This document shows, in pieces, positions 3,011 to 30,537 of a stretch of 64,000 nucleotides of DNA. The position numbers and the translations under genes were made by a program. Positions within the stretch are counted from its first letter, which is position 1. Each line of letters begins with the position of its first letter. Origin of the DNA: an uncultured Aquimarina sp. (GTDB lineage Bacteria; Bacteroidota; Bacteroidia; Flavobacteriales; Flavobacteriaceae); NCBI GenBank assembly GCA_947498765.1, contig CANMLG010000028.1, positions 1 to 64,000 on the forward strand, in the 5' to 3' direction. The notes below the pieces were generated by a model. It searched no databases and was not told the origin of the DNA. It saw nothing but the letters and a program-made list of their open reading frames with translations.

Positions 3011-3089
3011 ACAGTCGAATAGGTAAAAGGGAATTTTACCCCTAAACCTCTCACAGAATCCTACCTGATAGTTTCCCATCATACGGCTC
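3011..3089 (-). mobile_element. Group II intron 3'-end fossil (D5 + D6)
   Basis: Minus strand 3089-3056 is GAGCCGTATGATGGGAAACTATCAGGTAGGATTC: 34 nt, GAGCCGTAT start, GAUGG-GAAA-CUAUC stem with GNRA tetraloop, then TGTGAGAGGTTTAGGGG...CCTATTCGACTGT. Confidence 0.7.
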
Positions 3090-3168
3090 TTATTAGGCAG
3101 CCAATTCAACTAAGTTAAATGATAACCTAGTGACCAATGGTAAAATAGATTTGGAAAAACTTGATTGA

Positions 3169-17388: not shown

Positions 17389-20298
17389 TTACAATTTTAC
17401 AATTTTAACTACTTTTTCAAGTGACGTCTCTTTTTGTTTTAACGCTACAAAATAAACCCCAGAAGCTAAGTTTTCCAGATTCACTTTTGTTTGTTTTTCA
17501 TTTAATACTCCTTCATCAAAACCTTGACCTTTCAAATCAAAAATTTGATATGTTAATTTTTTTTCAGGCACATCAATACTTAACACATCTATAAAAGGGT
17601 TTGGATAAATGTTAACTTTTCCAATAACTAATTCAAAATCGTTAGTGCTCAATGTATTTTCACAATCTGATTCTACAGTAACTCTTATTCCATTTTTAAT
17701 ATCAGCGACTGTCGATGCAAAACCTTTCCCCTCTTCTGTCATATATATATTTAATCGGTACTCCTCACCTACACGTAAAATTTCTTTAGCATCAAAATTA
17801 ATTACTATACTATCCTCTCCATTTACTGTTTGTTTAGCCTTACCAACAATTTTAAAATCCGATAAATCTTGAATATCAATATTGATATCTCTCATTGTAT
17901 TAGTTTTATAGTCTAACTTTACACTTCCCTCTCCCGAAGGTTTAATACATTTTGTAGCAACATTTAATTCAAGACTTTCAGGGTTGGAATTACTTACCTC
18001 TAAAAAAAGAACATTTTCTGGCTCTAATTCGAAACCATTTTTAATCGTTATTCCTTTTAATAAATCATAAATAACTAAATCATCACCTTCAATTCCGTTC
18101 ATTGCTAAATTTAATGTAGCTGTTGTTACACCTAAATTAACTAATGATATCACATTTTTACCAGTTGTTGTTCGCACGGAATGTTGTGCTACTCCTTTAA
18201 AATTTACTGCTTGCTTATTTATTTCTGTAACTTTTATTAAAGGCTTAAAGCCTTTTGATTCTGCTTGTGTTAATATTAACTGTTTTACATTTGCCGAACT
18301 TGTAGGAATAATAGTTCCAGCTCCTGCTCTAAGTGATTTAGAATGATTTTGTCCATATTCATTTTTTTTAAGACTCACATTATCTAGTAAAATAGTCCCC
18401 CCATTATTCAAATAATCTTGTAAAGCATCTAATTCACTTTCTAGCACAAATTCGGAATCCTTTACTACAATAAACTCCCAGTTCTTTTGGTTTTGTTTTT
18501 CAATAATATTTTTAGTCACAAACCCCAATCGATGTCCTTCAAAATAAAGACTTTCATAAAAACCTTTCAAATTAGTCATATGATTGGGCTTGTTTATAGC
18601 CGATGTTTCCGAATAAAAAATACGTATTGGACTTTCTACTTCCTGTAAATCAGTAATTTCCTGTCCGTAACTATTTATATCCATCATAGTCGAATGTAAC
18701 TCAAATAACACTCTTGGTTGCTGCCCCACCGTAGATGCATTTCTTGTTCCGTTCCTGTACGAACCATCTTCTCTCCTTGTCCATACCCAATTTGTTGTCA
18801 TATCTAGCCCATGCATCGTAGCTAACCATTGGGAAGCTCTTGCATATTCTGGCCTTAGGAAAGCTTCGCGAAAACGTACATTATATAACATGTGGGCTTC
18901 CGAATTATAATTTATGGCATTAGGCTTTATTGAATGAAAAAAATCATAAGCCATGGTTAAATGTACCCAATCAAGCTTATATAGTTTTTGCCATGGTTTT
19001 TCTCCAAATCTTCGTGAACCATCCATATGAGCATCATGTCCTATCACGTCAGACATTTCCATTAATGATTCAAAATCTAAACCACTACTCCTATCATCAT
19101 TACTCCATTGAAATGGTATTAATTTAATATGTGTTTTAGCTTCATTATCTAGCCGTTTAATCTCATCATTCATAAACTTAAAATACTCGTTCACTCTTTC
19201 TTGATTAAAGCGCATAAAATCATACCACTTTGGATCCCCTTGAATGTTTGATGGTACAGGTGTTGAAATACTATTGGAAGCATCATTAAAATTAACAAAT
19301 GATGAATTCCATAAATTATTTAAAGTTGCAATATTCCCATGTTTTTTTTGCAACCAGGTTACAAATTTAGCATGTGTATATTTTGTTATTTCAACAAGAT
19401 CCCAACTTCCTGCAGTATTCCAATGAGGTTCATTTGCCAATAAATATCCTAATTTACTCATATTTTTCCCTTTAAATTCAGACACATAGCCTTTAAATAA
19501 AGCTTTCAATAAGGGTTTTGTTTGGGGGTGATCAATATCATAACCTGTAAATGCAGCATGTCCGTCTGTAATATCGGGGTATTTTTGCGTAATAAAAGGA
19601 GCTAGTCTATTCCCGCCTAAAAAAGGAGAACCAAAATTACCCGTATTTAAATTTTTTATGGCATTTTTTTGAGCTGTATTGATTTCAATGCTTCCATTTG
19701 GCTTTTCTTCTAAAAAATGTAGATCATAATAATAGCCTCCTAAATTACCAAAGTATGTTGTTAAATCTAGGTTATCAGCTTTTTTAGGTTTAAAAGTCCA
19801 ATCATTCCCAAAAACTGGTTTTCCATTTTGAACAATACGGTTTCCACTAATATCTAATTGATCCCATATAATAGTTGTAGTCTCAGCCCTTTTACCTTTA
19901 TTATTAATTAAATCTTCTAGCACTGCTATTCGTTCATCTAACATAATTATGACTTCATTACGTTCATAATCTGGTAATTCCTTTGCAAATTGGTTAGCTG
20001 TTTTATTTAAAGGAATTATAGGCAATTGTGCTTCAAAATCTGCTTCAACTTCGTTAACGTTTTTTTCATCCCAATTAGCATAAAATAAGTATACTTCAGC
20101 TACACGAATACACATTTTTTCTTTTCGAGTATCAATTCCTTGAGAATCTGCTTGATTTATTAATGTATTAAGTTCCTTAATCTTATTTTTAGCAGTTGCT
20201 TCTAAATCTTGTGAAAAAGAAGAAAAGTAAGAGTGTAAAACTACTACTATTAAGAGTAATTTTTTCATAATTTTAATGTTATTAGAATTTGTGTTCAA
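17389..20298 (-). CDS. Secreted clan GH-A glycoside hydrolase (GH42/GH50-like agarase or beta-galactosidase) with T9SS sorting domain
   Basis: LLANEPHWNTAGSWDLVEITKYTHAKFVTWLQKKHGNIATLNNLW; INYNSEAHML; C-terminal KVNIYPNPFIDVLSIDVPEKK...VKIVKL. Confidence 0.75.
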   Translation of the reverse strand: MNTNSNNIKIMKKLLLIVVVLHSYFSSFSQDLEATAKNKIKELNTLINQADSQGIDTRKEKMCIRVAEVYLFYANWDEKNVNEVEADFEAQLPIIPLNKTANQFAKELPDYERNEVIIMLDERIAVLEDLINNKGKRAETTTIIWDQLDISGNRIVQNGKPVFGNDWTFKPKKADNLDLTTYFGNLGGYYYDLHFLEEKPNGSIEINTAQKNAIKNLNTGNFGSPFLGGNRLAPFITQKYPDITDGHAAFTGYDIDHPQTKPLLKALFKGYVSEFKGKNMSKLGYLLANEPHWNTAGSWDLVEITKYTHAKFVTWLQKKHGNIATLNNLWNSSFVNFNDASNSISTPVPSNIQGDPKWYDFMRFNQERVNEYFKFMNDEIKRLDNEAKTHIKLIPFQWSNDDRSSGLDFESLMEMSDVIGHDAHMDGSRRFGEKPWQKLYKLDWVHLTMAYDFFHSIKPNAINYNSEAHMLYNVRFREAFLRPEYARASQWLATMHGLDMTTNWVWTRREDGSYRNGTRNASTVGQQPRVLFELHSTMMDINSYGQEITDLQEVESPIRIFYSETSAINKPNHMTNLKGFYESLYFEGHRLGFVTKNIIEKQNQKNWEFIVVKDSEFVLESELDALQDYLNNGGTILLDNVSLKKNEYGQNHSKSLRAGAGTIIPTSSANVKQLILTQAESKGFKPLIKVTEINKQAVNFKGVAQHSVRTTTGKNVISLVNLGVTTATLNLAMNGIEGDDLVIYDLLKGITIKNGFELEPENVLFLEVSNSNPESLELNVATKCIKPSGEGSVKLDYKTNTMRDINIDIQDLSDFKIVGKAKQTVNGEDSIVINFDAKEILRVGEEYRLNIYMTEEGKGFASTVADIKNGIRVTVESDCENTLSTNDFELVIGKVNIYPNPFIDVLSIDVPEKKLTYQIFDLKGQGFDEGVLNEKQTKVNLENLASGVYFVALKQKETSLEKVVKIVKL

Positions 20299-20531: not shown

Positions 20532-20575
20532 AAAAAAAGGCCATTCAGAAAATTTCCAAATGGCCTTTAATACAA
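20532..20575 (-). terminator. Intrinsic terminator of the aromatic operon
   Basis: aaaaaaggccattcagaaaatttccaaatggcctttaat. Confidence 0.65.
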
Positions 20576-20592: not shown

Positions 20593-21669
20593 TTACTTAG
20601 CTATATTGTGTTGGTGACTAATTGATTCTTGGTGAATTGCCGAATATACTTTTTCAATAAATTCTTCACTTAAACCTACTTGACTACCGTCGTTAATCAT
20701 TTTATTTTTAATAGCATTCCAACGATCATTTTGTAAAATTTGAACGTTATTTGCTGCTTTTACTTTTCCAATTTCATCAGAAATTGACATTCGCTTTGCC
20801 AGTTGCTGTACAATACTTTCATCAGCAATGTCAATACGTGCTCTCAATTCATTTAAAGCACTTTCGTATGCTGCTGTACCACCTTCACTACGTACTTTCA
20901 AATCTTTCATGATTTGAATAAGTGTGTCCGGTGTAATTTGTTGCTTAGCATCACTCCATGCATTATCTGGATCGTAATGAGATTCAATAATCATCCCATC
21001 AAAATTTAAGTCTAAACCTGTTTGACATAAATCTTGAATAATATCTCTACGCCCTGCAATATGCGAAGGATCTAATATAATTGGTAAATCTGGAAACTTA
21101 GCTTGTAAGTCAATTGGAATTTGCCATTCTGGAATATTTCTGTACTTCGTTTTTTCGTAAGTTGAAAACCCTCTGTGAATAACTCCTAAGTTTTTAACAT
21201 CACAAGTATAAAAACGCTCGACCGCTCCTAGCCATAAAGCTAAATCTGGGTTAATTGGATTTTTTACTAATACTGGATTTTTAATACCTCGACAAGCCTC
21301 TGCAATATCTTGAACAATAAAAGGAGAAACCGTGCTACGCGCACCAATCCATAAAATATCAATATCATGCTCTAATGCCAATTCTACATGATGAGGATTT
21401 GCTACTTCTGTAGCCGTTAGCATTCCAGTTTCTTTTTTTGCGGTTTGTAGCCATTTTAATCCTAAAGCACCAACACCTTCAAAGTTTCCGGGGCGTGTTC
21501 TCGGTTTCCAAATTCCAGCACGTAATACCGATGCATCTGAATCCTTTAATTGATGTGCAATTTTAACTACCTGATCCTCTGTTTCTGCACTACAAGGTCC
21601 CGCAATTACTAAAGGGTGATCTAACTTGTAGGCATCTAACCAATTTCTAAGTTCCTTTTTGTTTTCCAT
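20593..21669 (-). CDS. Bifunctional DAHP synthase / chorismate mutase (type II)
   Basis: PLVIAGPCSAETEDQ...RAGIWKPRTRPGNFEG...DPSHIAGRR; C-terminal CM LRARIDIADESIVQQLAKRMSISDEIGKVK. Confidence 0.95.
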   Translation of the reverse strand: MENKKELRNWLDAYKLDHPLVIAGPCSAETEDQVVKIAHQLKDSDASVLRAGIWKPRTRPGNFEGVGALGLKWLQTAKKETGMLTATEVANPHHVELALEHDIDILWIGARSTVSPFIVQDIAEACRGIKNPVLVKNPINPDLALWLGAVERFYTCDVKNLGVIHRGFSTYEKTKYRNIPEWQIPIDLQAKFPDLPIILDPSHIAGRRDIIQDLCQTGLDLNFDGMIIESHYDPDNAWSDAKQQITPDTLIQIMKDLKVRSEGGTAAYESALNELRARIDIADESIVQQLAKRMSISDEIGKVKAANNVQILQNDRWNAIKNKMINDGSQVGLSEEFIEKVYSAIHQESISHQHNIAK

Positions 21670-21856: not shown

Positions 21857-22735
21857 TCATTCAATACCCTGTAAAATTGTTTTAATTCTGTTGGTATCTT
21901 TCATTTCATTAAAAATATCCTCATCATTACCAGCTTCCATTAAGGCTTTAAACTCTGTTAAATTATCAATATATTCCTGTAATGCTCCTATTACATTTTC
22001 CTTATTTTGTTTAAAAATAGGTGTCCACATTGTTGGTGAACTTTTAGCTAAACGAACAGTAGATGCAAATCCACTACCTGCCATATCAAAAATATCACGT
22101 TCGTTTTTCTCTTTTTCAATAACCGTTTTACCTAACATAAATGAACTTACATGCGATAAATGCGATACATATGCTATATGTTTATCATGTGATGCCGCAT
22201 CCATATATCTAATACGCATTCCTAAACGATCAAAAATATCCAACGCAAATGCTACTTGTTTTTGCCCTGTTTTTTCAACTTCACAAATAATATTAGCTTT
22301 TCCTCTAAACAAATTAGTTAAAGCTGCTTTTGGACCCGAAAATTCTGTCCCTGCAATAGGGTGCGCCGCTAAAAAACAAGCTCTTTTTGAATGTTTCGAA
22401 ACTCGATTACACAGTTTTTCTTTAGTTGAACCTACATCAAAAACTAAGCAATCATCAGTCACTTTATCTAATACTTGCGGAAGTACAATTTGAGCAATAT
22501 CCACTGGAATAGCTAAAATTACTACATCTGCCTCATACAAGTTTGCAAAGGTAGCACTTTTATCCACAAAGCCCAATGAAATTGCTGTAGCCAAGTTGCT
22601 TTCATTAGCATCAATTCCATATATAATTGCATCTTTATATGCTATTTTTATATCAGTTACTAATGAACCTCCTATTAACCCTACCCCTATTACAAAAACT
22701 TTCATTGATCTGATTCGCTTGACACGAATTGCCAT
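21857..22735 (-). CDS. tyrA: Prephenate dehydrogenase
   Basis: MKVFVIGVGLIGGSLVTDIK...AAHPIAGTEFSGPKAA...HDKHIAYVSHLSHVSSF. Confidence 0.94.
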   Translation of the reverse strand: MAIRVKRIRSMKVFVIGVGLIGGSLVTDIKIAYKDAIIYGIDANESNLATAISLGFVDKSATFANLYEADVVILAIPVDIAQIVLPQVLDKVTDDCLVFDVGSTKEKLCNRVSKHSKRACFLAAHPIAGTEFSGPKAALTNLFRGKANIICEVEKTGQKQVAFALDIFDRLGMRIRYMDAASHDKHIAYVSHLSHVSSFMLGKTVIEKEKNERDIFDMAGSGFASTVRLAKSSPTMWTPIFKQNKENVIGALQEYIDNLTEFKALMEAGNDEDIFNEMKDTNRIKTILQGIE

Positions 22736-22806: not shown

Positions 22807-23967
22807 CTAAACAAATCCATTTAAACGCTCAATGGCTTCTTCTATTGCTTTTTCATCAATACACAGCGAAAAACGTATGTATCCTTTTCCTTGACTTCCA
22901 AAAATGGTTCCTGGTGTTATAAATATGGATTTCTCATACAAAATACGATCAATAAACGCTTCGGCATCCGTAATATGTTTTGGTAACTTAGACCATACAA
23001 ACATCCCTGTAGCATTTTCATCGTAAGTACAACCTAACAGTGTTGCTAATTTCCAAATTAACTTTCTGCGTTTGGCATATACAGCATTCATATTTGCAAA
23101 CCATTCTGTACCACATTCTAATGCAGCTATAGCTCCTTTTTGTAATCCCTGAAACATGCCGCTATCCATATTACTCTTTACTTTTAGAATAGCTTCAATT
23201 TTTTCTTTATCACCTAACACCATACCAACACGCCAACCAGCCATGTTAAAGGTTTTACTTAATGAGTTCAACTCTATAGCTATCTCTTTAGCTCCTTGTA
23301 TACTCAAAATACTCATTGGTTCTGGATTCAATACAAAACTGTATGGATTATCATTGACCAATAGTATATTGTGTTTCTTAGCGAAAGTGATCAAACTTTT
23401 AAACATTTCTTTTGATCCAGCAGCTCCAGTCGGCATATGTGGATAATTAATCCACATGATTTTTACTTTACTTAAATCTTGCTTTGATAAAGCTTCTAGA
23501 TTAGGATGCCAGTTATTCTCTGCTGATAAATCATAAAAAACAGGTTCTGCTCCTAATAATTTAGTTACCGATGTATAAGTCGGATAACCTGGATTCGGAA
23601 TAAGCACCTGATCTCCTTCATTTAAATACGCCATGGAAATATGCATAATACCTTCCTTTGATCCCATTAACGGAAGTACTTCAGTATCTTCATTCAAATC
23701 AACTCCATAATGTAACTCATAAAAATTTACAATAGCCTTACGCAACTCTGGTAAACCTTGATAACTTTGATATTTATGTGCTCCATTAACCAAAACAGCT
23801 TCAGTTATTGCTTTAATTACTGTTGTTGGAGGTTCCAAATCGGGGCTCCCAATTGCCATATTAATTACTGGTTTTCCTTGCAAAACTAAAGAGCGTACCT
23901 CTCTTAATTTTTTAGAAAAGTAATATTCCTCGACCGTTTCCAAGCGCTTTGCTGTTACTATGCTCAT
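22807..23967 (-). CDS. PLP-dependent class I/II aminotransferase
   Basis: NMAIGSPDLEPP...YQSYQGLPELRKAI...NSLSKTFNMAGWRVGMV. Confidence 0.95.
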   Translation of the reverse strand: MSIVTAKRLETVEEYYFSKKLREVRSLVLQGKPVINMAIGSPDLEPPTTVIKAITEAVLVNGAHKYQSYQGLPELRKAIVNFYELHYGVDLNEDTEVLPLMGSKEGIMHISMAYLNEGDQVLIPNPGYPTYTSVTKLLGAEPVFYDLSAENNWHPNLEALSKQDLSKVKIMWINYPHMPTGAAGSKEMFKSLITFAKKHNILLVNDNPYSFVLNPEPMSILSIQGAKEIAIELNSLSKTFNMAGWRVGMVLGDKEKIEAILKVKSNMDSGMFQGLQKGAIAALECGTEWFANMNAVYAKRRKLIWKLATLLGCTYDENATGMFVWSKLPKHITDAEAFIDRILYEKSIFITPGTIFGSQGKGYIRFSLCIDEKAIEEAIERLNGFV

Positions 23968-24794
23968 CCTTTTTGGTTTTTATATTCACCAAGTATTTTA
24001 AATTCCGTTGCCATAATTTCTAATATCGATGTGGCCTTTTCATAATTGATACTACTATCAAAAGTTACATCGACAAAAAAAGCATATTTCCAAGGTTTAT
24101 CAATTACAGGTAATGATTGTATTTTGGTTAAATTCATTCGACAATCGCTCAATACATTCAATACCGCGGCTAAACTGCCTCGCTTATGATCTAATACAAA
24201 TTTTAACGAAGCTTTATCTATCTCCTCCTTTTTAACACCTGAATCGTTCCTTGTATTTAAAATAAAAAAGCGCGTACTATTCGTTTTTATTGTTTGAATA
24301 TCTTCGGCTAAAACATTCAAACTGTATATATCTGCAGCTGTTTTTCCCGCAATAGCGGCAACACCTAATAATTTTTCATCTGTAATACGTTTAGCTACCT
24401 CAGCTGTATCCGCATCTTCAATCAACTTTATATGTGAATGTGCTCTAAAAAATTCTTTACATTGCAACAATGCCATTGGATGGGAATATACTTCCTTGAT
24501 ATCCGAAATAGCTTGTCCATCTAAAGCCATTAAACAATGATGTATAGGTAAATAAAACTCGCCACTTATAGTTAAATCATGCTCATCAATATAAGCGTAA
24601 TTAGGAATAATAGACCCTGCTATCGAATTTTCAATGGCCATTACAGCATCCGTACATATTCCTTTTTCTAAGTTATATACCAATTCTTGAAAAGACATAC
24701 ATTCATTTACCTCAATATCATTTCCAAAATAAGTTAAAGCCACACCATGATGATATGATCCTTTAACCCCCTGTATTCCTATTATTTGTTTCAT
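23964..24794 (-). CDS. pheA: Prephenate dehydratase
   Basis: GIQGVKGSYHHGVALTYFG...NSTRFFIL; ACT domain KFVLDHKRGSLAAVLNVLSDCRMNLTKIQSLP; 4-nt overlap with the next gene. Confidence 0.94.
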   Translation of the reverse strand: MKQIIGIQGVKGSYHHGVALTYFGNDIEVNECMSFQELVYNLEKGICTDAVMAIENSIAGSIIPNYAYIDEHDLTISGEFYLPIHHCLMALDGQAISDIKEVYSHPMALLQCKEFFRAHSHIKLIEDADTAEVAKRITDEKLLGVAAIAGKTAADIYSLNVLAEDIQTIKTNSTRFFILNTRNDSGVKKEEIDKASLKFVLDHKRGSLAAVLNVLSDCRMNLTKIQSLPVIDKPWKYAFFVDVTFDSSINYEKATSILEIMATEFKILGEYKNQKG

Positions 24795-24827
24795 TTACTA
24801 TACTAGTTACTTTCAATAACCACACAA

Positions 24828-24861
24828 AAAAATCCCGACTCTATTTCAGAATCGGGATTTT
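24828..24861 (-). terminator. Attenuator terminator upstream of pheA
   Basis: Minus strand AAATCCCGAttctgaaatagagTCGGGATTTTTTT; upper arm also complements GCGGGATTTT at 24902-24893. Confidence 0.85.
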
Positions 24862-24903
24862 ATATATTTAGCATTTTACTTTTTACATACCAAAATCCCG
24901 CTT

Positions 24904-24957
24904 CTATCTAAAAAAGAAGAAGAAATAAAATCGGTTATAAAAAAATAAATTGTTCAT
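24904..24957 (-). CDS. Phe/Tyr-rich leader peptide MNNLFFYNRFYFFFFFR
   Basis: ATG AAC AAT TTA TTT TTT TAT AAC CGA TTT TAT TTC TTC TTC TTT TTT AGA TAG; 8 Phe + 2 Tyr in 17 codons. Confidence 0.85.
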   Translation of the reverse strand: MNNLFFYNRFYFFFFFR

Positions 24958-24975
24958 TGACTTATTAATATGATA

Positions 24976-25005
24976 CAAATGTATTTAAACTTTTGATATT
25001 GCAAA
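24976..25005 (-). promoter_or_regulatory. Bacteroidota-type promoter of the aromatic operon
   Basis: TTTG (25005-25002), 18-nt spacer, TACATTTG (24983-24976), ending 18 nt before the leader ATG. Confidence 0.75.
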
Positions 25006-25095
25006 ATTTTTTTTAATATTTTTTTTAGAAAAGAAAAAATTAATAGCGTTATTCCTAATGATAAAAATTATTTTTGTCCATACAAAAAGTTCATA

Positions 25096-25983
25096 ATGTC
25101 AATAAAAGTATCTAACCTTTCCAAACATTACGGTAATCAAAAGGCCCTAAATAATATATCTTTTGATATCCCTAGTGGACAAATAGTAGGTTTTTTAGGA
25201 CCAAATGGTGCCGGAAAATCAACATTAATGAAATTGTTAACCACTTACCTAGCTCCTACCTCTGGTGAAGCTTTTGTGAATAACTTTAACATTAACACAC
25301 AAACAAAACAAGTACAGCAAAGTATAGGGTACTTACCAGAGCATAATCCCCTTTATTTAAATCAATACCCTAAAGAATATTTAAGTTTTAATGCTAATTT
25401 ATATAATGTTCCCAAGTCTAGCATTGAAGAAGTTATAGAATTAACAGGACTTCAAAATGAAACATCAAAAAAAATTGGAGCCTTGTCAAAAGGGTATCGA
25501 CAGCGAGTTGGACTAGCTTGCTCACTATTACATGACCCAAAAGTTTTATTACTAGATGAACCTACCACTGGATTAGACCCTAATCAATTGGTAGAAATTA
25601 GAGGTTTAATTAAAAGCTTAGGCAAGAACAAAACGGTTTTATTATCAACACATATTATGCAAGAGGTTGAAGCTATGTGCGATCGAGTACTTGTTATTAA
25701 CAAAGGAACTTTGGTTGCCGATCAACTTATCGATCTATCGAAAAAACAACAAAACTTACTGGTTACTTTTGATCAATCACCACATTTAGAATCTCTTAAA
25801 AAGCTACCTAATCTTACCCAAATAAAACAACTAAAAGATACTCAATTTTTAGTCTCTTTTGCAGATCAGCAAAACTGTGCTACACTCCTATTTGATTTTG
25901 CTGTTGCCAATAATTTGAAATTAACTCAATTACAACCACAGGAAATAAATATTGAAAATTTATTTAAAGAAGCCACCAATTAA
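25096..25983 (+). CDS. gldA: Gliding motility-associated ABC transporter ATP-binding subunit GldA
   Basis: GFLGPNGAGKSTLMKLLTTYLAPTSGEAFVNNFNI...SKGYRQRVGLACSLLHDPKVLLLDEPTTGLDPNQ. Confidence 0.88.
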   Translation: MSIKVSNLSKHYGNQKALNNISFDIPSGQIVGFLGPNGAGKSTLMKLLTTYLAPTSGEAFVNNFNINTQTKQVQQSIGYLPEHNPLYLNQYPKEYLSFNANLYNVPKSSIEEVIELTGLQNETSKKIGALSKGYRQRVGLACSLLHDPKVLLLDEPTTGLDPNQLVEIRGLIKSLGKNKTVLLSTHIMQEVEAMCDRVLVINKGTLVADQLIDLSKKQQNLLVTFDQSPHLESLKKLPNLTQIKQLKDTQFLVSFADQQNCATLLFDFAVANNLKLTQLQPQEINIENLFKEATN

Positions 25984-26089: not shown

Positions 26090-28375
26090 ATGAAATTAAA
26101 AACTTTTGCAATTACAGTATTCTCTGTAAGTACTGTAATTACTACTGCTGCCACTAAAACGATGGTAGTAAATGGACCTCCTGTCCCTGTATTTTCTCAA
26201 TCATCACTCAATAAGGCTAAAAAATTACTTTCTTCACTTACGCTAGAAGAAAAAATTGGTCAAATGAATCAATTAACTATTACTTCATTTGAATCAAGTC
26301 CTGGTATACTCGATGAAGCTAAACTAGAAGAAGCTATTCTAAAATACAATATAGGTTCCATATTAAATGTTCCGGGTACAGGTGCCGTAACTCCAGAAGT
26401 TTGGGGAAAACTAATGGCTAAAATTGAAGCTATTTCAAATAAAACTGACAAAAAAATTCCTATCCTTTATGGTATCGATGCCATTCACGGATCTAGCTAT
26501 ACTGCTGGTGCTACGTTATTTCCTCAACAAATAGGAATGGCCGCTACATGGAATACTGATTTAGTAGAACAAGGTACTCGTGTTTCTGCATACGAAACCA
26601 GAGCCTCTTCAATTCCGTGGGTATTTTCACCAGATTTAGATTTACCCCGCTCCCCTGTATGGTCTCGTTTATGGGAATCTTTTGGTGAGGACACCTACCT
26701 TTCGAAATCTATGGGTGTTGCCATGGTTAAGGGTTTTGAAGGAGATAATGTAGGTGACAAATATAATGTAGCTACTTGCATAAAACATTTTGTTGGGTAT
26801 GGAAGCACCGTAACTGGACGTGATCGTACTCCTAGTATTATCCCAGACAGGATATTACAACAATTTGATTTACCTATTTTTAAAGCAGCAATTGATGCTA
26901 AAGCAAAAAGTATTATGATAAGCTCTGGTGAAATTAATGGTACACCAGTACATGCCAGTAAAAAATTATTGACTACTATTTTAAAGGAACAACTTGGTTT
27001 TCAAGGCATGGTATTAACCGATTGGCAGGATATTATTTATCTATATACACGTCACAAAGTAGCCAAAGACAACCGAGAAGCAGTAAAAATGGCTATAAAC
27101 GCAGGTATTGATATGAGTATGGTACCTGATAATTACACTTTTTATAATGATTTGCTTTCATTAGCTAAAAGCGGTGAAGTCGCTATGACTAGAATTGACG
27201 ATGCCGTACTAAAAATTTTAGCACTTAAATACGAATTAGGTTTGTTTGATCAATCTTTTGTGGCTAAAGCTAAAGACTACAAAAAATTTGGTTCTACTGA
27301 ATATGAAACTTTAGCTTATAACGCTGCTGCAGAATCCATCACGTTACTTAAAAATAATGCCGCCATTTTACCATTAAGTAAAAACAAAAAAATATTGGTT
27401 ACAGGACCAACAGCAAATAGTATGAAGTTTTTAAATGGAGGCTGGACATTTACGTGGCAAGGTGAAAAAGCAGATGAATTTGAAAAAGATGAGTTCACTA
27501 TTCTAGAAGCTTTTGAAAATAAAGTAGGTAAAGAAAACGTAATTTATGCGAAAGGAGTAGAAATTTTTAAAGAAGTCAATATTGCCGAGGCTGTTAAAAA
27601 AGCACAATCGGTCGATGTTATCATTTTATGTGTTGGCGAACATAATTATACCGAAACTCCAGGTGATATTATGGGCTTAGCTATTACTAAACCTCAGCAA
27701 AAATTAGCCGAAGCTTTACTAGCTACTGGAAAACCTGTTGTATTAGTTTTAAACGAAGGTAGACCAAGAACAATCACTAATTTTGAACCTAAATCAAAAG
27801 CAACCATTCAGTGCTATTTACCTGGTAGCGAAGGTTCACGAGCTTTAGTAGATATTATTTATGGAGACGTAAACCCAAGTGGTAAATTACCTTATAACTA
27901 CCCTCGTTTTACCAATTCATTACAAAAATACAATCGTAAATACACCGAAAGTTTAGGTGACGAAGAACAAAATGATGATGCCGATTACCAAAAAAGCTAC
28001 AATCCTTTATATGAATTTGGAACAGGCTTATCTTATACCACATTCGAATACAGCAATTTGATAGTAAATAAAAATACATTCAACTCATCTGATACTATTG
28101 AAGTTTCTGTAACTGTAAAAAATACTGGAAAAGTAACTGGAAAAGAAGTGGTTCAATTGTATCTAAGGGATGAAATTGCTAGTATTACTCCCGAAGTAAA
28201 ATCATTACGCGGATTTCAAAAAATCAATCTTAACCCTAGCGAAAGTAAATCAGTAAAATTTATCCTAAAACCTGCAGACTTTAAATTTGTTAATGAGGCA
28301 GAAAAATGGGTTTCCGAACCCGGTGAGTTCACTATAAAAATTGGTGATTTAACTAAATCAATTGAGTTAAAATAA
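26090..28375 (+). CDS. Glycoside hydrolase family 3 (beta-glucosidase-like)
   Basis: LTLEEKIGQMNQLT...PILYGIDAIHG...FPQQIGMAATWN...GMVLTDWQDI; C-terminal fibronectin III-like domain. Confidence 0.95.
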   Translation: MKLKTFAITVFSVSTVITTAATKTMVVNGPPVPVFSQSSLNKAKKLLSSLTLEEKIGQMNQLTITSFESSPGILDEAKLEEAILKYNIGSILNVPGTGAVTPEVWGKLMAKIEAISNKTDKKIPILYGIDAIHGSSYTAGATLFPQQIGMAATWNTDLVEQGTRVSAYETRASSIPWVFSPDLDLPRSPVWSRLWESFGEDTYLSKSMGVAMVKGFEGDNVGDKYNVATCIKHFVGYGSTVTGRDRTPSIIPDRILQQFDLPIFKAAIDAKAKSIMISSGEINGTPVHASKKLLTTILKEQLGFQGMVLTDWQDIIYLYTRHKVAKDNREAVKMAINAGIDMSMVPDNYTFYNDLLSLAKSGEVAMTRIDDAVLKILALKYELGLFDQSFVAKAKDYKKFGSTEYETLAYNAAAESITLLKNNAAILPLSKNKKILVTGPTANSMKFLNGGWTFTWQGEKADEFEKDEFTILEAFENKVGKENVIYAKGVEIFKEVNIAEAVKKAQSVDVIILCVGEHNYTETPGDIMGLAITKPQQKLAEALLATGKPVVLVLNEGRPRTITNFEPKSKATIQCYLPGSEGSRALVDIIYGDVNPSGKLPYNYPRFTNSLQKYNRKYTESLGDEEQNDDADYQKSYNPLYEFGTGLSYTTFEYSNLIVNKNTFNSSDTIEVSVTVKNTGKVTGKEVVQLYLRDEIASITPEVKSLRGFQKINLNPSESKSVKFILKPADFKFVNEAEKWVSEPGEFTIKIGDLTKSIELK

Positions 28376-28451
28376 ATTATCAATAATAGTTTTCAACAAG
28401 TGTGATTTAATTAAATAAAATTTTAATATCACGCTTAAATTTTTAATTAAG

Positions 28452-28495
28452 ACTATAAAAATACCCTAGCTACTTAGCTAGGGTATTTTTCTTGG
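28452..28495. terminator. Bidirectional terminator between convergent genes
   Basis: aaaataccctagctacttagctagggtattttt. Confidence 0.75.
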
Positions 28496-28596
28496 TAATA
28501 TTTATTACCTGACTTTATTGATATCTCCAAATAAATTTATTCAAGAAACATCAAAAAGCCATACTTTTAATTTTGAAAACCAAGACGAAGATTAAA

Positions 28597-30537
28597 CTAG
28601 TCTGCCCTTATTAAACGTGGAATAGGCATTGAAAAATTGAATACCTGTAAACTAACACTTGAAATCATTCCTCCTTCGTCTGGAAAAGTTATACTAATTT
28701 TATTTGATTTCTTTAGGTATTCATATGGTATAGGTATTTCAAAAACTCCAAAAAATTGATCTCTGTTCTTTTGGTCATAGCCTTTCCAATCCTTAACCAT
28801 TATTATTTGCTTTCCATTTATCTCTATTGATGGCGTTAACGCTAAGTTATGTGCCCTTCCCACACCAAGTCGCAATATAGCTTCTCCTTGAACACCTAGT
28901 GATACTCCCTTTACTGTAAATTCATTCTTTTTATTAGCTATTATTGTCTTAAGATAGCTTTCTGCATATACCTTTTGTTCTTCGGATGTATTTGTTAGCT
29001 TTATTTCGTTATTCAAATTATATTCTAATAGTACAGTAGCTTCTTTATCTAAAGTAATTTGTTTTGGATTAATTTGCTCACTGGCGTCAAGCACAGGCTC
29101 TCCTTTACTATCCGCATATAAATGCTTCACTAGAACAGTTCCGTTTAATGAATTTACTTTTAGCTCGGGAATATTTAATTTTACAGTGACTGAACTATGT
29201 TCTAAATTACTCAAAATAATGTATGTCTTTTTCCCTTTCACATAGGCATCAATTAATAAGTCTGGATCATTAGCATAGGTATCCACTCGTGTACCTTCCA
29301 CATTAGCCCAAAGCTCAAAAAACTTTAAAAAATCGGTATATACCCATTCCTCTCCTGTCTCTCCTTCTATTTCTTTATTTTGACGTAGTAATCGGTAACT
29401 GTATTTATAATTATCAGGATTTTGCCACCACTTTGCCTTTAAAATCATAAATGGAATAGCACTTATAATTTGATCTTGTCGTTCCATAAATTGCATCATC
29501 ATAGATGAAAATGTTCTTATATTAAACCAATCCCGAGGCTTATTATATGGGCCATTTAACGATCGACCTAACCAACCATACTCTGATATACTAAAGGGTT
29601 TTATCTTTCCTAATTTTATATAACTATACTGTTCTACCATATCTAAAATAGCTTCCGTATTACTCCCTTTTCGTTGTAATTCCTGACCATTATCTGCTAA
29701 AAAATCGTATAAGTGCAATGAAAAGAAATCCATATCATTACCAGCTTCATCAATAAAAAGCCTCCAATTATTTTTCCAATGATTAAAATTATTATCCTCA
29801 TACGCTGGGTGTGCCGCTGAATATCCTCCTACTTTTACATCTGGATTAAGCGCTTTTATTCTTTTTGCCACAACCTTATGCATTTGCGTTATCTTGGCAT
29901 TAGTTGTTCCTAACTTTCTTGATTTCACAAAAGGTTCATTTAATACCTCTACATATTTAGGCCTAGGTTTTCCTGTTTCCTTACCCGAACCAAAAAACTC
30001 TTTTAAATAAGTTGCGTAGTATTCAGCAACTGCTTCATAACTTTTATATGCCCATGGCTCAGAGGTTGAACAACATTTATTAGGTCTTGTAAGTTGACCC
30101 GAAGGGTACATTGGAGTAGGTTGTCCTCCAAAAACCATATTACTATAACGATCTTCAAAATTATGTGTACTTTTCTGTTTAGCATAACTACTTTTTGATG
30201 CTATTCCTTTTTCTTTTAGTATTTCAACATTAGGCCATCCCTTTTTATTTGGGTCTTCGGAAGATTGATCAAACTCCCAAACCATACTCCCATTATTCCT
30301 GCCTAAATACACATCATAAGTTTCCAAAAAATGTTTACGTTTTGCATCACTATCCCATTCATTATCGTCAATATCCCCATGGAGTATCATAAATTTACTT
30401 CTATCAAATTCAGCTATTCCATGTACAGCATGTTTTGTACTTAAATTTACCTCTGCTTGTATTATATTTTGAGCTTTGGTCTGAGTTCCACATAAAAAAA
30501 CGCCTAAAACTCCTAGTAGTAACATATGATGTTTCAT
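28597..30537 (-). CDS. GH86-family beta-agarase/beta-porphyranase-like
   Basis: MILHGDIDDNEWD...MVFGGQPTPMYPSGQL...YVEVLNEPFVKSRKLG...FSISEYGWLGR. Confidence 0.8.
   Translation of the reverse strand: MKHHMLLLGVLGVFLCGTQTKAQNIIQAEVNLSTKHAVHGIAEFDRSKFMILHGDIDDNEWDSDAKRKHFLETYDVYLGRNNGSMVWEFDQSSEDPNKKGWPNVEILKEKGIASKSSYAKQKSTHNFEDRYSNMVFGGQPTPMYPSGQLTRPNKCCSTSEPWAYKSYEAVAEYYATYLKEFFGSGKETGKPRPKYVEVLNEPFVKSRKLGTTNAKITQMHKVVAKRIKALNPDVKVGGYSAAHPAYEDNNFNHWKNNWRLFIDEAGNDMDFFSLHLYDFLADNGQELQRKGSNTEAILDMVEQYSYIKLGKIKPFSISEYGWLGRSLNGPYNKPRDWFNIRTFSSMMMQFMERQDQIISAIPFMILKAKWWQNPDNYKYSYRLLRQNKEIEGETGEEWVYTDFLKFFELWANVEGTRVDTYANDPDLLIDAYVKGKKTYIILSNLEHSSVTVKLNIPELKVNSLNGTVLVKHLYADSKGEPVLDASEQINPKQITLDKEATVLLEYNLNNEIKLTNTSEEQKVYAESYLKTIIANKKNEFTVKGVSLGVQGEAILRLGVGRAHNLALTPSIEINGKQIIMVKDWKGYDQKNRDQFFGVFEIPIPYEYLKKSNKISITFPDEGGMISSVSLQVFNFSMPIPRLIRAD

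Follow-up and report, generated by a model that had tools for sequence, protein, structure and literature searches.

How is the supply of phenylalanine and tyrosine set in the Bacteroidota, a phylum in which the control of amino-acid operons is poorly described? The pheA locus of an uncultured Aquimarina sp. (Flavobacteriaceae) raises this question. In our window, the whole stretch of 64,000 nucleotides (nt) analysed (assembly GCA_947498765.1, contig CANMLG010000028.1, positions 1 to 64,000), a preliminary description made from the letters alone had proposed a Phe/Tyr transcription attenuator at 24828-25005 on the minus strand, in front of an operon of pheA, an aminotransferase, tyrA and a DAHP synthase-chorismate mutase fusion (DAHPS-CM). 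Taken together, our analysis leaves little doubt that this element is a ribosome-mediated transcription attenuator, which would sense charged tRNA-Phe (and tRNA-Tyr) and set read-through into the four-gene Phe/Tyr operon. Leader-peptide attenuation is a textbook mechanism, and the element belongs to a kind of system already known, here in a lineage with few descriptions of it.

Leader, arms and terminator upstream of pheA

The leader and its arms lie between the divergent gldA (25096, plus strand) and the pheA start at 24794 (minus strand), and comprise the following features.

24976-25005, minus strand: inferred promoter, a Bacteroidota-type motif TTTG-N18-TACATTTG, by direct sequence reading
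24904-24957, minus strand: leader peptide gene MNNLFFYNRFYFFFFFR with its stop codon, from sequence, conservation, frame-specific Phe+Tyr content and mostly synonymous variation in the aromatic run
24892-24900, minus strand: arm A (CGGGATTTT), 5' half of the antiterminator, from pairing with B and a spacing that matches relatives
24847-24861, minus strand: arm B (AAAATCCCGATTCTG), common to antiterminator A:B and terminator B:C, from pairing and folding
24829-24843, minus strand: arm C (TAGAGTCGGGATTTT), 3' half of the intrinsic terminator, with a T tract to 24826, from sequence, terminator search and folding

Re-reading the minus strand recovered the promoter motif with an ATG downstream as described: TTTG at 25005-25002 is followed by 18 nt and then by TACATTTG at 24983-24976, together a putative promoter. 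On its own, the TANNTTTG motif occurs 127 times in this AT-rich window, not significantly above the 118 expected; among relatives, a -7 motif akin to that of the window (mostly TACTTTAG) stands upstream of the leader ATG in 188 of 203, at a median distance of 19 nt. The leader begins with the ATG at 24957 and ends with the stop codon at 24906-24904, reading ATG AAC AAT TTA TTT TTT TAT AAC CGA TTT TAT TTC TTC TTC TTT TTT AGA TAG. As had been claimed, its 17 codons include 8 Phe and 2 Tyr, with one run of five consecutive Phe. A strict rule demanding a Phe/Tyr leader plus terminator selected only one of 530 tiles of 480 nt across the window, which was the pheA leader locus, and the folding energy of the leader region is 5.2 standard deviations (sd) lower than that of shuffled controls.

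The three arms and the terminator of the preliminary description are real, with positions shifted by one or two bases: GCGGGATTTT occupies 24901-24892 rather than 24902-24893, and its paired portion is CGGGATTTT at 24900-24892. Arms B and C form a hairpin of 15 base pairs (bp) at 24861-24829, with a predicted energy of -18.7 kcal/mol, running into seven T at 24832-24826. It is the sole terminator found in 24600-25200 (0.1 expected in shuffles), and an intrinsic terminator likewise stands between leader and first gene in relatives.

We then folded the window RNA with arm B but not arm C included, letting a ribosome protect 13 nt past the first base of the codon in its A site. With the ribosome stalled at codons 10-15, A:B forms at -18.7 to -15.0 kcal/mol; the fold energy weakens to -8.8 kcal/mol at Phe16 and -4.6 kcal/mol at Arg17, and with the ribosome at the leader stop A:B is gone (-2.9 kcal/mol). 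The change-over coincides with the end of the Phe run. The roles assigned beforehand to B:C as a U-tailed terminator and to A:B as an antiterminator thus agree with the hairpin, with this folding and with the covariation of A and B described below.

Conservation and covariation among relatives

We collected 213 pheA upstream regions, comprising the window, 79 named loci from GTDB genomes, 100 Flavobacteriaceae (nearly all from different genera) and 33 more distant Bacteroidota. An automated rule required an ATG-started open reading frame (ORF) of 8-45 codons, at least 20% of them Phe or Tyr, and an intrinsic terminator within 120 nt downstream, and found the pair in 203 of the 213 regions. A stricter rule retained 200 of 213, compared with 1 of 42 regions upstream of window ORFs of at least 150 amino acids, that one being pheA itself. 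Five of the ten failures were recovered by eye: L232, L234 and L249 carry leaders whose start codon or terminator narrowly missed the automated rule, the leader of L062 starts with GTG and that of L093 probably with TTG. These two starts are possibly natural down-variants of leader translation. The near-universal presence of the element among the relatives checked points to an ancient, general control in Bacteroidota.

The leader behaves as a coding sequence. Across the 203 leaders, 39% of the residues encoded in the leader frame are Phe or Tyr, whereas the other two frames yield 14 and 18%; the median leader has 25 codons (mean 5.9 Phe and 3.1 Tyr). In 54 Aquimarina-type leaders, variation within the aromatic run is mostly TTT/TTC and TAT/TAC, that is, mostly synonymous. 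A short ORF rich in codons for the amino acids made by the operon, 10 of 17 in the window, is therefore kept in more than 200 genomes. Tyr occurs in the leader beside Phe, as does Trp in 68% of the 203 genomes, which refines the preliminary description.

In the preliminary description, arm A abutted the leader stop codon. This holds for the window, where the leader ends 3 nt before A, but not for most relatives, in which it reads through arm A and terminates just past it (GIAM-stop and similar). The difference stems from an in-frame TAG in the subclade of the window (AGA TAG AAG CGG GAT TTT GGT ATG TAA), downstream of which the former ATG TAA end is still visible as a relic (24880-24907), and the short leader probably arose secondarily. 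Whether at the old or the new stop, a ribosome covers A; in most relatives a finishing ribosome sits on A because the leader continues through it.

Covariation of the arms was assessed in 126 genomes, nearly one per genus, by scoring the best A:B helix against permuted partners. The mean score of own pairs was 17.8 versus 14.2 for permuted ones (sd 0.24; z = 15, which is not an exact probability, related genomes not being independent), and 0 of 20,000 permutations were as good. This mean-score contrast is conservative because permuted partners often share arms by descent. Matched changes in A and B include GGGATT/AATCCC and GCCGGG/CCCGGC among relatives, GGGACC/GGTCCC in Leeuwenhoekiella, GAGACT/AGTCTC in Lacinutrix and GGATT/AATCC in Flavobacterium; in other families the pairs are GAGGCT/AGCCTC or GAGCGGTC/GACCGCTC. 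The antiterminator, whose formation excludes the terminator, hence covaries. Comparison with relatives, the check called for by the preliminary description, bore it out: relatives keep the leader with its aromatic run as well as the three arms, and the arms change together in a compensatory manner.

The spacing of arm A is also constrained. In relatives it starts a median of 13 nt past the first base of the last codon in the longest aromatic run, and in the window the last Phe codon begins 12 nt before it. This distance is 10-16 nt in 90% of genomes versus 18% under random placement in the searched region, and is less variable than that from the stop or the ATG to A. A bacterial ribosome stalled at the last aromatic codon would have its leading edge approximately where arm A begins. 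By computation, the fold switch and the fixed spacing agree that ribosome position selects the hairpin.

Proposed mechanism and alternative explanations

On the basis of these computed parts, we infer a course of events in which transcription start, ribosome stalling and the response to starvation are each predicted. RNA polymerase would start about 13 nt upstream of the leader, with a ribosome following. When Phe or Tyr is short, the ribosome would stall in the aromatic run and leave arm A free just ahead; A could then pair with the emerging B, C would stay single, and polymerase would continue into pheA. When both are plentiful, the ribosome would reach the stop and cover A, B:C would form, and transcription would end before pheA.

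The preliminary description had likened this to the enterobacterial pheL logic. Leader-peptide attenuation is supported by the leader, the arms and the gene content, but the device does not duplicate pheL. We detected no protector arm, the leader:A duplex being no stronger than with shuffled leaders (mean z -0.31 vs -3.24 for A:B), in a test that gauges pairing strength rather than RNA structure in the cell. We therefore rejected the four-arm enterobacterial design and propose that the device has three arms; in contrast to the trp design of E. coli, a leader that is not translated should then give read-through by default. The enterobacterial pheL-pheA system (RF01859, Phe_leader) resembles ours in its Phe-rich leader and in having, upstream of pheA, an antiterminator and an intrinsic terminator that exclude each other. 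It differs in that the window-type element has no detected protector arm, an arm A that overlaps or abuts the leader end, a leader that includes Tyr and often Trp, and a position before a four-gene Phe/Tyr operon rather than pheA alone. The RF01859 model aligns over the whole window element, yet with 17.6 bits against a gathering score of 55.

Several points weigh against the attenuator. Arm A measures just 5-6 bp in some relatives, and both the spacing and the folding arguments use the dimensions of the E. coli ribosome. By the automated rule and reading by eye, the element is absent from 5 of the 213 regions (L203, L222 and L226-L228). L226-L228 form one family-level group in which, judging from the L226 and L228 sequences, an aroA-like ORF apparently abuts pheA; this suggests that their aromatic operon is rearranged and under other control. 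Seven more distant members of the phylum (L252-L258) also show no element.

Could the hairpin simply be a common terminator, with the short ORF arising by chance in AT-rich DNA? The region is indeed very AT-rich, and poly-T reads as Phe in any frame. Nonetheless, the aromatic content is specific to one frame, gldA is divergent and so no upstream transcript on the minus strand needs ending there, and leader and terminator recur in almost all pheA upstream regions, as opposed to the single case among the window's own. Given this frame specificity, the background counts and the conservation in more than 200 genomes, we rejected this explanation, whose probability we regard as negligible. A metabolite-, tRNA- or protein-binding 5' element (a T-box, a riboswitch, or a TRAP- or TyrR-like site) might instead drive the terminator, with the ORF incidental, since alternation between terminator and antiterminator also occurs in riboswitches and T-boxes. 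We judge this very unlikely: no T-box, riboswitch or other leader family reached its gathering score in the window pheA region or in 11 relatives, arm A is spaced from the aromatic run, and the roughly 59 nt from leader ATG to A are filled by coding sequence, so that no room is left for an aptamer.

Stalling could also alter the translation or stability of the pheA mRNA rather than its transcription. The conservation of the leader itself would fit such a device, and stalling upstream ORFs with translational control exist. Against it, the B:C hairpin carries a T tract in virtually all genomes and lies 8 to 115 nt upstream of pheA (5th-95th percentile), so that the pheA start is mostly not sequestered; we give this explanation an equally slim chance. 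The transcription attenuator is thus the reading that we retain.

An element of this kind has been glimpsed before. A 2021 transcriptome of Flavobacterium psychrophilum reports that amino-acid operons are preceded by strong indications of leader-peptide attenuation; in a separate list, it gives 5' elements of pheA and hisG that are conserved in Flavobacteriaceae and have no Rfam hits (PMC9723704). The structured element listed there upstream of pheA is very probably the same as ours; the main text of that study, unlike the present analysis, contains neither a leader sequence nor arms, and does not treat covariation, spacing or occurrence outside the family. In the open-access literature searched we found no detailed account of the pheA leader, nor its class-wide distribution, covariation, spacing rule or missing protector arm. 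Within Rfam, the pheA leader had no significant match at gathering or relaxed thresholds in the window, nor at gathering score in the 11 relatives. The Bacteroid-trp motif (Weinberg 2010, RF01692) is likewise a cis-regulatory candidate RNA of Bacteroidetes, tied by name to trp genes, but concerns a different operon and matches neither the window nor the trp leader of this genome.

We lean towards the view that the class Bacteroidia as a whole inherited, together with similar His and Trp leaders, a three-arm attenuator as its original control of the Phe/Tyr operon, one that has no protector and keeps A about 13 nt away from the final aromatic codon. If so, early transcription-translation coupling is implied, because the switch needs a ribosome close behind RNA polymerase; such coupling would operate in a phylum largely without Shine-Dalgarno initiation, and an untranslated leader would by default permit read-through. 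A conserved ribosome-dependent switch would offer a ready natural reporter for this coupling in Bacteroidota, with shortened leaders, GTG or TTG starts and Trp loss as natural variants for comparison. Such short leaders escape gene annotation, and no Rfam family covers the element.

The Phe/Tyr operon and other leaders of the same genome

All four genes downstream of the leader are, as the preliminary description held, Phe/Tyr biosynthesis genes according to Pfam and NCBIfam.

23964-24794, minus strand: pheA, prephenate dehydratase with ACT domain (Pfam PDT 1.6e-55, plus ACT)
22807-23967, minus strand: class I/II aminotransferase, with a 4-nt overlap with pheA (Pfam Aminotran_1_2 4e-64)
21857-22735, minus strand: tyrA, prephenate dehydrogenase (NCBIfam PRK08507, 371 bits against a cut-off of 295)
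20593-21669, minus strand: DAHP synthase-chorismate mutase fusion (Pfam DAHP_synth_1 and CM_2)
20536-20568, minus strand: operon-end intrinsic terminator, a 15-bp stem and T run about 25 nt past the last stop codon

Because gaps of 71 and 187 nt precede tyrA and the DAHP synthase gene, respectively, internal promoters are possible. The four-gene order is kept in 9 of 10 relatives examined, including ones from other families of the class; L262, the exception, yielded just pheA and DAHPS-CM in the stretch examined. In keeping with an Aquimarina origin, the window PheA shares 98% identity with its A. agarilytica counterpart.

Leader peptides precede further operons in this genome. Upstream of hisG (L214, contig C24), a His leader, MNYSCAHPHHYYLIAQAG and a stop, is followed by a terminator with a 5' arm capable of pairing with the leader end; arms resembling A, B and C (CTCAAGCGGG, AAACCCGTTTGAG and CTCAAACGGGTTT) precede a T tract, and this element is likely a his attenuator. 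Upstream of trpE (L216, contig C16), a Trp leader, MKNLNFNIWWWISLVN and a stop, precedes a strong terminator, AGGCTTGTC/GACAAGCC; the Rfam Bacteroid-trp motif gave no match there. The ilvD upstream region showed no obvious leader, each operon being checked singly. With His and Trp leaders in front of the his and trp operons, this genome appears to use leader-peptide attenuation as a general method.

Large ORFs at 17389-20298 and 26090-30537 flank the Phe/Tyr operon and gldA; judging from their translations only, they resemble secreted enzymes that degrade polysaccharides, and one has a C-terminal sorting-like domain. Elsewhere in the window, a group II intron match lies at 3014-3091 on the minus strand (Rfam RF00029, 46.5 bits).
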